Assembly: GCF_026162425.1 (NCBI RefSeq)
Contig: NZ_JAOBQJ010000002.1
Coordinates: 186,001 to 250,000 of the forward strand
Reading direction: 5' to 3'
DNA: 64,000 nucleotides
Source: Flexivirga meconopsidis
GTDB lineage: Bacteria > Actinomycetota > Actinomycetes > Actinomycetales > Dermatophilaceae
Part shown: positions 27,631-32,787 of the stretch, piece after piece
How positions within the stretch are numbered: the stretch's first letter is position 1
Layout of the letters: each line of letters starts with the position of its first letter
Notes under the pieces: generated by a model
Databases searched by the model: none
Told to the model about the DNA's origin: nothing
The model's input: only the letters and a program-made list of their open reading frames with translations
Made by a program: the position numbers and the translations under genes

Positions 27631-28748
27631 CGCGACCTCGGCCGGATGATCTTGCGGTCCCGACTCTGCTCCAGCACGTGCGCCGCCCATCCCACCACGC
27701 GACTGCACGCAAAGGTCGGGGTGAACATCTCGCGCGGCACCCCGCACGCCTGCATCACCACGCCCGCGTAGTACTCGACATTCGCTCGCAGCGGCCGATC
27801 CGGCTTTGCCTCATCGAGCACCTTGACGACCTCTGCCTCCGCCGCGACGGCCAGGTCCGCGGTCGGTCCGCCTAGCTCAATTGCGGTCTCCTTCAACAGT
27901 TCCGAGCGCGGGTCGAGGGTCCGATAGACGGGGTGACCGAATCCCATCACCCGTTGCCCGGCAGCGAGCTGTGCGCGCGCCCAGCCCTCTGCGCGCTCCA
28001 CCGATCCGATCTCGTCAAGGGCGTCCAGGGCCCTGCTCGGGGCACCGCCGTGCAGCGGGCCGGCCAGCGCGCCGACACCTGCGACCAGGCACGAGCTCAG
28101 GTCGGTGCCGGTCGACGCGACCGTGCGGGCGGTGAACGTCGAGTTGTTGAAGCCGTGGTCGATGGTCAGCACGAGGTAGCGGCTAAGTGCGGCGATGTGT
28201 TCTGCGCTCGGGGTCCTGCCGGTCAACATCGCGAGATAGCTTGCGACATAACCAAGTTCGGGCCGTGGGGCGACCGGCTCCCGTCCACTCGCCAGCGCGT
28301 GTGCCGCCGTCACCAGCCATGGCACCACGGCTGCGGTGCGCAGCGCAGCACGTTGCTTGATGTCCTCGTCGCTGTCCCAGAGCGGCCGGTCACCGGTCAG
28401 CGCGCCGTATGCCGAAAGCGCCGTCCGCAGAGTGACCAACGGGTCGTCGCTGCCTGCTGCCCGCATCACCACCCCGAGTTGCTCCGCCAATCCCTCCGGT
28501 ATGACGAGGGCTTCTGCCACGTCGGCCTCCCATGGACCCCGCTGCGCCTCGGTCGGCAGCTCGCCGCGGAGCATCAAGTGCCAGACGTCCTCGAAGCTGT
28601 GGTCCCGGGCTAGGCGCGTGGCGTCGTACTGCCGGTAGTGAAAGAAGCCCTCCGCACCGCGCACGTCGCCGATCGCTGTCTCGGCGACGACGACACCGGC
28701 CAATCCCGGTGGGGTGACAATGAGTTCGCTGGCTGCTGAGGTGGTCAT
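27606..28748 (-). CDS. Citrate synthase (citrate/2-methylcitrate synthase family)
   Basis: 380 aa, complete. Active-site elements: GFNNSTFTARTVAST, AGPLHGGAPSRALD (His), VMGFGHPVYRTLDPR (His) and ANVEYYAGVVMQACG, where the usual catalytic Asp is Glu, then the C-terminal FACSRVVGWAAHVLEQ. It condenses acetyl-CoA (or propionyl-CoA) with oxaloacetate. ATG 28748 has CACGCT 6 nt upstream and TTGACG 18 nt before that, so it is probably leaderless. A GTCAA/TTGAC half-site cluster lies around the -35. Part of this gene and its promoter is duplicated at 30643-31354. It is not in an operon with other TCA genes. Confidence 0.92.
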   Translation of the reverse strand: MTTSAASELIVTPPGLAGVVVAETAIGDVRGAEGFFHYRQYDATRLARDHSFEDVWHLMLRGELPTEAQRGPWEADVAEALVIPEGLAEQLGVVMRAAGSDDPLVTLRTALSAYGALTGDRPLWDSDEDIKQRAALRTAAVVPWLVTAAHALASGREPVAPRPELGYVASYLAMLTGRTPSAEHIAALSRYLVLTIDHGFNNSTFTARTVASTGTDLSSCLVAGVGALAGPLHGGAPSRALDALDEIGSVERAEGWARAQLAAGQRVMGFGHPVYRTLDPRSELLKETAIELGGPTADLAVAAEAEVVKVLDEAKPDRPLRANVEYYAGVVMQACGVPREMFTPTFACSRVVGWAAHVLEQSRDRKIIRPRSRYVGPLPE

Positions 28749-28779
28749 GACGGCAGCGTGCGGCTGCCGGCCAGTGAGC

Positions 28780-28799
28780 GTCAATCTTGACGACGTCAA
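28780..28799. promoter_or_regulatory. Putative operator: overlapping GTCAA/TTGAC inverted repeats
   Basis: GTCAA-TC-TTGAC (28780-28791) overlaps the 13-bp palindrome TTGACGACGTCAA (28787-28799). It covers the -35 (TTGACG on the minus strand) of the citrate synthase promoter. The same array is kept in the duplicated promoter at about 31270-31289. A regulator, possibly the HTH-citrate synthase, may bind here (inference). Confidence 0.45.
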
Positions 28800-28864
28800 C
28801 ATAGGCGCGGACGAAAATCGGTTGTCGCCTCCGTGATTGGCGACCTAACCTCGCCGCACGGTGA

Positions 28865-29492
28865 GGTTGACCCCGTTCGGTGGACATCCTGATCGCCAGG
28901 CATTTGGCTTGGCAGGGAAGGATGCCCTGCGCAGGTTCGATCGTGGGGCACTGAACGTGGTGTGGACCTCCGACATCACCCATCTGGCCACCGGGCAGGG
29001 CTGGTTGTATCTGTGCACGGTCCGCGACGGGTGCTCCCGGCGGGTGATCGGGTACGCGTTCGCTGACAACCTGCACACCGACCTGGTCGAGACCGCGCTG
29101 CGTCGCGCGGTCACCTTCCGCGATCCGGCCTCCGGATCGACCGCGAAGGTCATCTTCCACGCCGACCGGGTTGTCAGTACACGTCCACTCAGCTGGCTGA
29201 CGTCGCCGACGAGGTCGATGTGCGGCTGTCCGTGGCGCGGACCGGGGTGTGCTGGGACAACGCTCAGCAGGAATCGTTCTGGTCGACGCTGAAAACCGAG
29301 TACTACCAGCGGCACTCGTTCGACACACACGCCGAAGCGATCACCCGGGTCAGCTCCTGGATCGAGACCGTGTACAACTGTCGGCGACGGCACAGCGCAC
29401 TAGGCCAGATCAGCCCCATAGCCTTCGAGAACACGCTCACCACCACGGCCAACGAAGCCGCTTAACCCGATGTCCACGAAACGGGGTCAACC
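28865..29492 (+). mobile_element. IS3-family remnant with both terminal inverted repeats
   Basis: The left end 28865-28888 and right end 29469-29492 are imperfect 24-bp inverted repeats (GGTTGACCCCGTT core, about 22 of 24 matching). Between them is only the 3' part of an IS3 orfB, so orfA and the start of orfB have been lost by internal deletion. It stands exactly at the junction of the two copies of the citrate synthase region. No clear target duplication is visible. Confidence 0.8.
28889..29465 (+). pseudogene. IS3-family transposase OrfB, truncated and frameshifted
   Basis: The rve integrase core is recognisable: VVWTSDITHLATGQGWLYL (first Asp), VIFHADR (second Asp), then in another frame QYTSTQLADV ... 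CWDNAQQESFWSTLKTEYY (Glu) and the C-terminal NCRRRHSALGQISPIAFE. The frame changes at about 29170, where one G appears to be missing from a run of G. The N-terminal third is deleted. Not expected to be active. Confidence 0.85.
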
Positions 29493-30274: not shown

Positions 30275-30616
30275 ATGACATCAACAACAGTAGTCGGAAC
30301 ATATAAGGGTGCGAAGGTTCGCCTCGCGCAACCGGAGATTACAGATGGTTCGGTAGAAGTTACCTTCTTCATCGAATCTGACGGCCCAGGCGACACCAGC
30401 CCGTCCGGGTTCCTAACAGACATCGTCCCGACATTGACGCTCGGGGAGAGAGTTCTCAAGGTCCGAGAACTTAACGGCGTAACCGTCAACGCAACGTCGT
30501 CGCCGTGGTGGGTGCTGTGGAGGTTCGTCGACGACACACCCGACCGCAGCGGATCGCTCCACTTCACCGGCCTTGACCAAGACAAGACGGTACCCGTGAC
30601 GCTGCCGAGCGCGTGA
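30275..30616 (+). CDS. Hypothetical protein in lower-GC insert
   Basis: 113 aa. The start is one base after the preceding stop, which suggests coupled translation. The chain looks like a small all-beta domain (VVGTYKGAKVRLAQPEITDGSVEVTFFIESD ... SLHFTGLDQDKTVPVTLPSA), with no signal peptide or membrane segment. Codon use is more AT-tolerant than in neighbouring genes, which points to recent acquisition. No family recognised. The downstream citrate synthase pseudogene begins 26 bp later on the other strand. Confidence 0.5.
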   Translation: MTSTTVVGTYKGAKVRLAQPEITDGSVEVTFFIESDGPGDTSPSGFLTDIVPTLTLGERVLKVRELNGVTVNATSSPWWVLWRFVDDTPDRSGSLHFTGLDQDKTVPVTLPSA

Positions 30617-30642
30617 CGACCCGGCACTTCAAGGTGCCATCT

Positions 30643-31240
30643 TGCGCCGATGTGACCAGGCACGAGGTCAGGTCGGTGCCGGTGGACGCGACGGTCCGCG
30701 CAGTGAACGTCGAGTTGTTGAAGCCGTGGTCGATGGTGAGCACCAGGTAACGGCTGAGCACGGTGACGTGTTCGGCGCTCGGAGCACCGCCGGTCAGCGT
30801 CGCGAGATAGCTTCCGACATAACCGAGTTCAGGTCGCGGCGCGAGTGGTTCCTGCCCCTTCGCGAGAGACTGTGCCACAGTCACCAGCCACGGCACGACG
30901 GCCGCTGTGCGCAGGGCGGCACGTTGGTTGGTGTCCTCGTCGTTGCCCGCCGCCCGCATGACAGTCCCCAGCCGATCTGCCAATTGCGCTGGTATGACGA
31001 GAGCTTCGGCCACCTCGTCCTCCCACGCCGCACGACGGTCGCCGGTCGGCAACTCCCGCGGAGCATCAAGTGCCAGACATCCTCGAAGCTGTGGTCCCGG
31101 GCTAGGCGCGTGGCGTCGTACTGCCGGTAGTGGAGGAAGCCTTCGGCGCCACGCGCGTCGCCGATCGCTGTCTCGGCGACGACGACACCGGCCAATCCCG
31201 GTGGGGTGACAATGAGTTCGCTGGCTGCTGAGGTGGTCAT
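30643..31240 (-). pseudogene. Citrate synthase gene copy, broken
   Basis: From ATG 31240 the first 62 codons are almost identical to the intact gene at 27606-28748. A frameshift follows LMLRG, then a diverged part (LPTGDRRAAWEDEVAEALVIPAQLADRLG) in another frame, with an in-frame loss of about 30 codons relative to the intact gene (GNDED). Homology runs to VASTGTDLTSCLV and stops at about 30643, so the catalytic C-terminal half is absent. Cannot encode an active enzyme. Confidence 0.85.
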
Positions 31241-31313
31241 GACGGCAGCGTGCGGCTGCCGGTCAGTGAGCGTCAATCTTGACGACGTCAACATAGCCGC
31301 GGACGAAAATCGG

Positions 31314-31343
31314 TTGTCGCCTCCGTGATTGGCGACCTAATCT
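31314..31343 (+). promoter_or_regulatory. Promoter of the aspS2 T-box transcript
   Basis: TTGTCG (31314-31319), an 18-bp spacer and TAATCT (31338-31343). Transcription would start near 31350, so stem I of the T-box lies at the very 5' end of the RNA. The same promoter with TAACCT exists in the other copy at about 28824-28853, where it now reads into the IS remnant. Confidence 0.6.
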
Positions 31344-31350
31344 CGCCGCA

Positions 31351-31494
31351 CGGCGACGACGGGAGTGACGCCCCCGAGCCGATCGCAGGACAAGAGGTCG
31401 CGGCATCCGCTGCGGCGAAGGTGTGGTGGCACCGCGAAGTTGGCCCCATCGCCCACACCTCCGGGGAGTCGTTTTCTCATGGAGGTGAATACAC
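31351..31494 (+). promoter_or_regulatory. T-box riboswitch, translational type, Asp specifier, controlling aspS2
   Basis: Ultrashort stem I: GCGA (31353-31356) with TCGC (31383-31386), then CGGG (31360-31363) with CCCG (31373-31376), whose loop holds GAC (31367-31369), the Asp codon. A 6-bp hairpin follows (31399-31404 with 31409-31414). The T-box core is AGGTGTGG (31419-31426) paired with CCACACCT (31453-31460). These flank the 7-nt bulge TGGCACC (31427-31433) and helix GCG/CGC (31434-31436 with 31450-31452), exactly the antisequestrator layout. TGGC would pair with a GCCA tRNA end, and tRNA-Asp has discriminator G. In the alternative fold CACCTCC (31456-31462) pairs with the ribosome binding site GGAGGTG (31481-31487). 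Uncharged tRNA-Asp should therefore open the ribosome binding site. Confidence 0.88.
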
Positions 31495-32787
31495 ATGCAC
31501 CAGCGCATCCTGGCCGCCGAACTGGCGCAGATCCCGATTGGGTCGGAGGTCACCCTCGCCGGTTGGATCCATCGACGCCGGCAACTGTCGGGCGTGAGTT
31601 TCCTTGTGCTGCGCGACCGTTCGGGTCTGGCCCAGATCGTGGCAAAGGCGCCCCACGCCCGCGCTGCGATCGGCACGCTCGGCGAGGAGTCGGTCGTGCA
31701 GGTGCGCGGCAGGCTGGCCGCCAACGACGCCGCACCCGGCGGTCTCGAGGTGATTGAGCCACGCATCGAGCCACCCACCGAACCATCACTCACCCCACCG
31801 GTCGAGCTCTGGCGACCCGCCCAATCCGAAGGACTGCCAACCAGATTGGACCACGCAGCGGCGGCGCTGCGACACCCGCGTAGCAGAGCCCGTTGGCAAC
31901 TGGCTGCGGCGTCGCTGCATGGCTTCCGCTCGTCACTCGACTCCGAGGGGTTCACCGAGGTGTCGACCCCGAAAGTGGTCGGCATGGCCACCGAGTCCGG
32001 CGCCAACGTCTTCCAGCTCGACTACTTCGGCAGACCGGCCTATCTCGCGCAGTCGCCGCAGCTCTACAAACAGATGCTGGTCGGAGTGTTCGAGCGGGTC
32101 TTCGAGGTCGGTCCGGTGTTCCGCGCCGAGCCGCACGACACAGTCCGGCATCTTGCCCAATACACCTCTCTCGACGTCGAATTCGGCTTCATCGAGAGTC
32201 ACCGCGACGTGATCGCGATGTTCCGGACCGTGCTCGCCGGCATGCTCAGCTCTGTCCGGGAGCGTGCCGCCGACGCGGTGGAATTGCTCGGCGTCGACGT
32301 CCCGCAGGTGCCGGAAGCGTTGCCCGTCATACATTTTCGGGAGGCGCTGCGGCTGGTCGGTGCCGCACCGGACGAGCCGGACCTCGAGCCGGCACACGAG
32401 CGAGCACTCGGGGTCTGGGCCAAGGAGACTCACGGTTCGGATTTCCTTGTGGTGGAGGGCTATCCGATGGCGAAGCGCCCGTTCTACACCCACCCGCAGC
32501 CGGACGACCCACGATGGTCCAACAGCTTCGACGTGCTCTTCCGCGGGCTGGAGCTGAGCACCGGCGGCCAACGGCTGCATCGGCCGGCGGACTACCGCGC
32601 CGCACTGGCGACGAGCGGGCAGTCGGCAGAGGAGTTTTCGGCATACCTTGAGGCATTCGACCACGGAATGCCGCCGCACGGCGGTTTCGCGATCGGGCTG
32701 GAGCGCTGGGTGGCCCGGCTCACCGGGGCAGCGAATGTGCGGGAGGTGACGCTCTTCCCGCGTGACCTGCACCGCCTGGCCCCATAG
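31495..32787 (+). CDS. aspS2: Aspartyl-tRNA synthetase, archaeal-type (AspRS2)
   Basis: 430 aa class II synthetase. It has an N-terminal OB-fold anticodon domain (VTLAGWIHRRRQLSGVSFLVLRDRSGLAQIV), then the catalytic core with motif 1 GFTEVSTPKVVG, FQLDYFGRPAYLAQSPQLYKQ, motif 2 FRAEPHDTVRHLAQYTSLDVEFGF and motif 3 GGFAIGLERWVARLTGAANVREVTLFPRD. The short length and lack of the bacterial GAD insertion mark the archaeal type, which may be non-discriminating and also charge tRNA-Asn. The Asp T-box upstream supports Asp specificity. GGAGGTG lies 7 nt before ATG 31495. Most actinobacteria also carry a bacterial aspS elsewhere, so this is likely a second copy. Confidence 0.92.
   Translation: MHQRILAAELAQIPIGSEVTLAGWIHRRRQLSGVSFLVLRDRSGLAQIVAKAPHARAAIGTLGEESVVQVRGRLAANDAAPGGLEVIEPRIEPPTEPSLTPPVELWRPAQSEGLPTRLDHAAAALRHPRSRARWQLAAASLHGFRSSLDSEGFTEVSTPKVVGMATESGANVFQLDYFGRPAYLAQSPQLYKQMLVGVFERVFEVGPVFRAEPHDTVRHLAQYTSLDVEFGFIESHRDVIAMFRTVLAGMLSSVRERAADAVELLGVDVPQVPEALPVIHFREALRLVGAAPDEPDLEPAHERALGVWAKETHGSDFLVVEGYPMAKRPFYTHPQPDDPRWSNSFDVLFRGLELSTGGQRLHRPADYRAALATSGQSAEEFSAYLEAFDHGMPPHGGFAIGLERWVARLTGAANVREVTLFPRDLHRLAP

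Follow-up and report, generated by a model that had tools for sequence, protein, structure and literature searches.

A structured leader before a second aspartyl-tRNA synthetase gene

Is the leader of the second aspartyl-tRNA synthetase (AspRS) gene in the 64,000-nucleotide stretch of actinobacterial DNA analysed here (the window) a T-box riboswitch, and if so, which tRNA does it read and at which level does it act? A sequence-only reading had proposed an Asp-specific, translational T-box with an ultrashort stem I. Based on the leader itself and on its relatives, we consider it highly probable that the leader is a T-box riboswitch with an ultrashort stem I, that it is specific for Asp and that it controls translation.

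The gene, aspS2 (31495-32787, forward strand, as are all leader features below), encodes a 430-aa aspartate--tRNA(Asn) ligase (NF003483, 531.7 bits, cut-off 353). By this profile match the enzyme is archaeal-type and belongs to the aspartate--tRNA(Asn) family; its score against TIGR00458 (aspS_nondisc) is 359.9 bits, just below the cut-off of 368.4. The genome also carries a bacterial-type AspRS (C5), which bears out the description of aspS2 as a second AspRS, and one further, more distant AspRS match (C7) that is probably a lysyl-type ligase. An AsnRS over cut-off was found in none of the 13 genomes searched and gatB over cut-off in all 13, so Asn-tRNA is presumably made by transamidation. 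The distribution of aspS2 is patchy, with 12 of 58 relatives (the window's own genome counted) at E 1e-60 and 17 of the 396 genomes of the order at E 1e-100. One of the 12 (L085, 39% identity) is probably not aspS2, and the bulge motif described below was not found at its locus. Genome G427 has two aspS2 loci (L090 and L099), each with a leader, the second with an in-frame TAG.

A broken second copy of a citrate synthase gene adjoins aspS2 (30564-31294, reverse strand), while in the nearest relative (L075) an unbroken, whole-protein citrate synthase match of 85% identity lies divergent to aspS2. A direct duplicate of 301 bp, 96% identical, occupies 28564-28864 and 31056-31356 and holds the start of the citrate synthase gene, the aspS2 promoter and the first few leader bases; its extra copy now faces an IS3-like transposase fragment (28861-29292).

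Anatomy of the leader

The sequence-only reading had placed stem I at the very 5' end of an RNA starting at 31314. Both starts shift downstream: stem I begins at about 31351, and because 31314-31343 resembles a promoter, with a predicted -35 element TTGTCG (31314-31319), an 18-nt spacer and a -10 element TAATCT (31338-31343), the RNA probably starts near 31350 (±1-2 nt), 7 nt downstream of the -10 element. The same arrangement and spacing are kept in L075 although the spacer sequence differs, and by eye TANNNT occupies the -10 place in seven of nine minimal leaders, being absent from L080 and L082. A consensus promoter scan found no sites and left that at 31314-31343 unreported, so that the promoter is predicted from comparison. 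The CGGCG block that starts at 31351 is conserved in all nine minimal leaders.

The ultrashort stem I (31351-31381), likewise conserved in all nine, consists of a C-stem CGGC/GCCG (31351-31354 with 31378-31381), a kink-turn-like GAC plus GA (31355-31359) opposite GA (31376-31377), and the hairpin GGG/CCC (31361-31363 with 31372-31374; loop AGTGACGC) noted earlier for the GAC in its loop. This GAC (31367-31369, within AGUGACGC) is the Asp specifier. By eye, the C-stem has compensatory changes from G-C to A-U in L084 and to C-G in L092. The nine minimal leaders alone are too invariant for covariation among them to be informative (55 of 500 shuffles reach their score), so it does not prove the pairing of stem I.

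A 10-nt linker (31382-31391) replaces stem II and stem IIA/B and leads into stem III with its purine string (31392-31419): AAGAG (31392-31396), stem III (31397-31403 with 31410-31416) and AA (31418-31419). The RRRxG-stem III-AA motif, as defined in the available text of PMC7583486, is thus present as AAGAG...AA. Across a leader alignment of 34 rows the GAGG and GAA flanks of stem III are mostly conserved, 93.5% of the stem III cells are paired and three of five pairs have changed on both sides.

The antisequestrator (31419-31460) has the plan that the sequence-only reading described: helix A1, AGGTGTGG/CCACACCT (31419-31426 with 31453-31460), encloses the T-box bulge TGGCACC (31427-31433) and helix A2, GCG/CGC (31434-31436 with 31450-31452). 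The competing hairpin of the same reading is also present. In the predicted fold this sequestrator (31456-31487) pairs 31456-31463 with 31480-31487 and continues with 31464-31468 against 31474-31478; its core, CACCTCC (31456-31462) with GGAGGTG (31481-31487), shares 31456-31460 with helix A1 and contains the Shine-Dalgarno sequence GGAGG (31481-31485), 9 nt before the ATG at 31495. Sequence and comparison together establish the helices, their mutual exclusion, the codon, the discriminator match and the gene.

Conservation and covariation

A pattern for the element, AGGTGNGGTGGNACCGCG, occurs exactly once in the 64 kb, but at up to 3 mismatches it is found twice against 2.43 times expected in shuffles, which is chance level; the case is therefore carried by relatives. 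Within 400 nt upstream of aspS2, the bulge motif is present at 51 of 70 genome_contigs loci, including ten of the ten actinobacterial ones, and was not found upstream of the other 19, four of which have less than 230 nt of upstream DNA. For the alignment we used 35 leaders from Actinobacteria: the window's own, 10 that came from genome_contigs and 24 found in whole genomes (L085 was dropped beforehand). Helix A1, the bulge and helix A2 are kept in 35 of the 35 aspS2 loci tried, the leaders having been located by a pattern that contains the bulge and CGCCC. The bulge reads UGG[CU]AC[CA] throughout and UGGCACC in the window. L008 and L018 have UGGU instead of UGGC, and a variant UGGCACA, in which the last base is changed from C to A, occurs in 12 leaders (L076-L083, L086-L088 and L098).

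Covariation of 31419-31426 with 31453-31460 had been singled out in advance as a point on which the T-box reading would stand or fall, and it is found. Over 34 distinct rows and 16 pairs, pairing holds in 96.9% of the cells, and in five pairs both partners have changed. The covariation score is 0.177 compared with 0.091 in shuffles (none of 500 reached it); slid controls score 0.029-0.076. For helix A1 itself 97.8% of the cells are paired and two of eight pairs show double changes, one from U-A to A-U in two rows and another to C-G in nine; in 6 of the 34 rows its outermost A-U pair is disrupted.

Aspartate specificity

The GAC codon is shared by both stem I forms among the 35 leaders: 26 have a short stem I with U-GAC-R and nine a long one with A-GAC-A, classes that were selected with TGAC[AG] and AAGACA as patterns and inspected by eye; three of the short ones (L090, L097 and L099) were read by hand. 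In L007 stem I is atypical, and GAC occurs a second time. Eleven further short leaders outside this set also read U-GAC-R by eye. The tRNA-Asp of the genome has the anticodon loop CUGUCAC and ends in G73-CCA, so that GAC matches the loop and the UGGC of the bulge complements the 3' end, as had been anticipated for a tRNA ending in GCCA. We considered whether the U before GAC (26 of 26 short and none of nine long actinobacterial aspS2 leaders) might be an adaptation specific to the short stem I; this idea is weakened because many long leaders of Chloroflexi also have U before GAC.

Masking of the Shine-Dalgarno sequence

In the predicted fold of the window's leader without tRNA, 31481-31485 has an unpaired probability of 0.001 or less and no pair of helix A1 forms. 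Of the 35 leaders, 30 have the Shine-Dalgarno sequence itself as one strand of the competing helix, and in these 30 the mean energy of the sequestrator's own pairs is -19.65 kcal/mol vs -18.35 kcal/mol for permuted arms, a difference reached in 0 of 400 permutations with relatedness uncorrected. The five leaders left out of this comparison, all from Amycolatopsis, lack the sequestrator helix, and their Shine-Dalgarno sequence pairs weakly with the helix A1 arm (-4.3 to -4.8). An alternative CTTCTC/GAGAAG helix considered for Amycolatopsis is absent from the predicted folds of the two leaders that were folded. Sequestrator and antisequestrator are mutually exclusive, as in the translational, ultrashort (ileS-type) T-box, and a terminator-like site was not found in 31250-31550. 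Control is thus probably translational, which agrees with the original proposal.

We infer tRNA binding, a response to charging and a direction of control along the following lines. When aspartate or AspRS activity runs short, uncharged tRNA-Asp would bind at two places, its GUC anticodon pairing with GAC in the stem I loop and its free GCCA end with the UGGC of the 7-nt bulge. This pairing would stabilise helices A1 and A2 (31419-31460) and pull 31453-31460 off the Shine-Dalgarno sequence, leaving it free for ribosomes to start on aspS2. The 3' end of charged tRNA-Asp could not insert, the CACCTCC/GGAGGTG hairpin would form and translation would be off.

A doubly reduced architecture

Beyond what had been noticed earlier, the leader lacks stem II, its helix A2 lacks a wobble pair, and the same RNA is found in other genomes and before the main aspS. 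The link from GAGCC to GAGG measures 11-13 nt in 12 leaders, nine with a short stem I (the window, L075, L077, L079-L083 and L086) and three with a long one (L008, L076 and L078), L076 and L081 having been read by hand. In the window's lineage this link leaves out stem II with its S-turn and the IIA/B pseudoknot, while a long stem II occupies this position in L102 and L105, AUC-bearing leaders that were assigned to ileS by eye. The G-U wobble at the end of A2 is also missing, since all 35 leaders have CGC there and hence G-C, and no leader failed the pattern search as one with CGU would have; by eye G-U is kept in four AUC-bearing T-boxes (L102-L105). In the available text of the T-box review PMC7583486, this wobble is called the primary steric sensor of 3'-aminoacyl tRNA, and ileS data are given in which a truncated stem I, once stem II is missing, has hardly any affinity for tRNA; by that account a short stem I without stem II should barely bind tRNA. 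New here are the combination of an ultrashort stem I with the absence of stem II, and G-C in place of G-U in A2.

How these losses may have been ordered is suggested by a quick tree of 47 AspRS2 proteins, with SH-aLRT as its only support values. Long-stem-I L078 groups with the window and L075 (93), long-stem-I L076 groups with the other seven short-stem-I leaders (92), and both groups lie inside one clade of 11 lacking stem II (99). If lost stem I parts were not regained, this suggests two or more truncations of stem I within a lineage that by then had no stem II; unordered parsimony counts three changes overall and would permit regain of stem I too.

With stem II also missing, only three things would be left to grip the tRNA: the discriminator domain, the kink-turn and a loop-loop pairing that may extend past the codon (5'-GUGACG-3' against 5'-UGUCAC-3' in the anticodon loop). 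The switch may function in this doubly reduced form. We tentatively propose, as a possibility that we hold to be somewhat more doubtful than probable, that a T-box of about 111 nt, counted from the predicted start through the antisequestrator, is functional with no elbow-binding distal part of stem I, no stem II and no A2 wobble sensor; that it holds tRNA-Asp by at most six contiguous loop-loop pairs (GUGACG/UGUCAC, one of them G-U) plus the 3'-end contact and senses charging by other sterics; and that this form evolved two or more times from an ancestor resembling glyQS, in which stem I was long and stem II absent.

Detection and spread

A search with the Rfam T-box model RF00230, suggested by the sequence-only reading, left the window unreported, with no match in the leader even at E 10, none in 15 relatives at E 1 and none in the whole of the window's own genome at E 1. 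The gathering score was passed by L010 alone among 20 aspS2 loci, and sub-threshold matches fell on aspS2 leaders of Actinoplanes and Amycolatopsis; the model therefore overlooks these forms.

Our own model R1, built on nine leaders, matches 23 of the 396 genomes of the order, namely all 17 with aspS2 (four of which had supplied model sequences) and six others. In these six, which belong to the window's family and gave no aspS2 match, the ultrashort Asp T-box precedes the bacterial-type housekeeping aspS (L136-L139, L143 and L144; the gene was identified by profile for L138 and L143 and by eye for the other four). This position supports specificity for Asp. In a sample of the class, R1 matches 19 of 394 genomes, and among 15 further loci fetched from it L152 precedes aspS2, several are AspRS-like by eye and three are without the searched motif. 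Another of the 15, from a different actinobacterial family, is a weaker match (L166, 34.7 bits): a long T-box-like leader with UCC at the specifier position that lies before a SerRS gene (by profile), the same code logic as GAC before AspRS.

Alternative explanations

The same T-box could act mainly on transcription, by attenuation or Rho access, and not on ribosome access. Many Chloroflexi aspS2 leaders are long T-boxes with GAC and T-rich terminator hairpins, so that the level of control differs between phyla, and in the six leaders before aspS about 95-125 nt separate the bulge from the start codon, compared with 68 in the window, so that Shine-Dalgarno masking, and with it the output mechanism, is not obvious there. 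Against this, the region around the window's leader has no terminator-like site that we could find, and the arms of the Shine-Dalgarno helix match better within leaders than between them; we regard a mainly transcriptional switch as improbable here. In three Chloroflexi loci (L016, L029 and L041) two T-box bulge motifs lie in tandem within about 420 nt upstream of aspS2, and a further match in L029, at the start of the gene, is probably due to chance. A decayed T-box, which after the loss of stem II and distal stem I no longer senses tRNA and persists as a constitutive or weakly regulated hairpin leader, seems to us improbable to the same degree. Such decay would suit the missing A2 wobble pair and the two lost elements for gripping the tRNA, and also the segmental duplication and the IS3-like fragment near the window's copy, but specifier, kink-turn, purine string, bulge and helices A1 and A2 hardly vary among nine genomes whose proteins share 68-87% identity with that of the window.

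That tRNA-Asn is the sensed tRNA is less probable still. The enzyme family (NF003483) and the absence of an AsnRS over cut-off would fit it, and TGGC suits any tRNA with G73, which tRNA-Asn also has; yet the loop codon is GAC in the 35 leaders, and the same RNA stands ahead of the main aspS. Actinomyces-1 RNA (RF02928), the sole sub-threshold Rfam match in the leader (23.3 bits), is almost certainly not what the leader represents. Matches of about 23 bits to this model are background in many genomes, whereas those over cut-off score 69-113 bits and come from six genomes of another family, each of which carries several copies; 6 of the order's 396 genomes pass the cut-off, and in the class none of 296 does. 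The six loci fetched from these are without the T-box motif, and the idea that RF02928 is a hidden 5' half of a T-box was rejected on the same grounds. The preferred reading thus remains an Asp-specific, probably translational T-box.

Comparison with known systems

No paper among those searched joins 'T-box' and 'aspS2', and among the titles and abstract openings searched none named an Asp T-box in Actinobacteria; a prior listing, for example in TBDB, is possible, since the available text of PMC7778990 describes a scan of Actinobacteria with a class II model. According to the available text of PMC1262725, translational T-boxes in Actinobacteria are described for ileS. The leaders described here would extend these from ileS to AspRS genes, both the patchy archaeal-type and the housekeeping ones. 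T-box research has worked with two ways of gripping the tRNA, either by a long stem I in contact with the elbow or by a short one aided by stem II; a natural T-box with neither raises the question of the minimum needed for tRNA reading and charge sensing, and the family offers a natural series for testing, from a long stem I without stem II to a short stem I without stem II.

The window's leader resembles the actinobacterial ileS translational T-box (ultrashort stem I, TBDB class II) in its short, apical-loop specifier, in its discriminator domain with a UGGN bulge and in a Shine-Dalgarno sequestrator that replaces the terminator. It differs from it in the specifier (GAC, not the AUC of ileS), in preceding aspS2 or aspS, in the lack of stem II and IIA/B in its lineage and in the G-C of A2, where ileS has G-U. 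With the glyQS T-box of Bacilli it shares the absence of stem II and a purine string with stem III directly after stem I; glyQS, however, is transcriptional and has a long stem I with an elbow-binding distal part that the window lacks. The Chloroflexi Asp T-boxes with a long stem I, found here, precede the same gene family and have the same GAC and bulge, but possess a full stem I, a stem II region and terminators. Clostridium acetobutylicum has a two-codon T-box for tRNA-Asn, and the specificity of its aspS T-box differs from that of the window's. According to the available text of PMC2494555, that aspS T-box stands on one of three aspS copies; like the window's it sits on a spare AspRS, but it is of the Firmicute transcriptional type.
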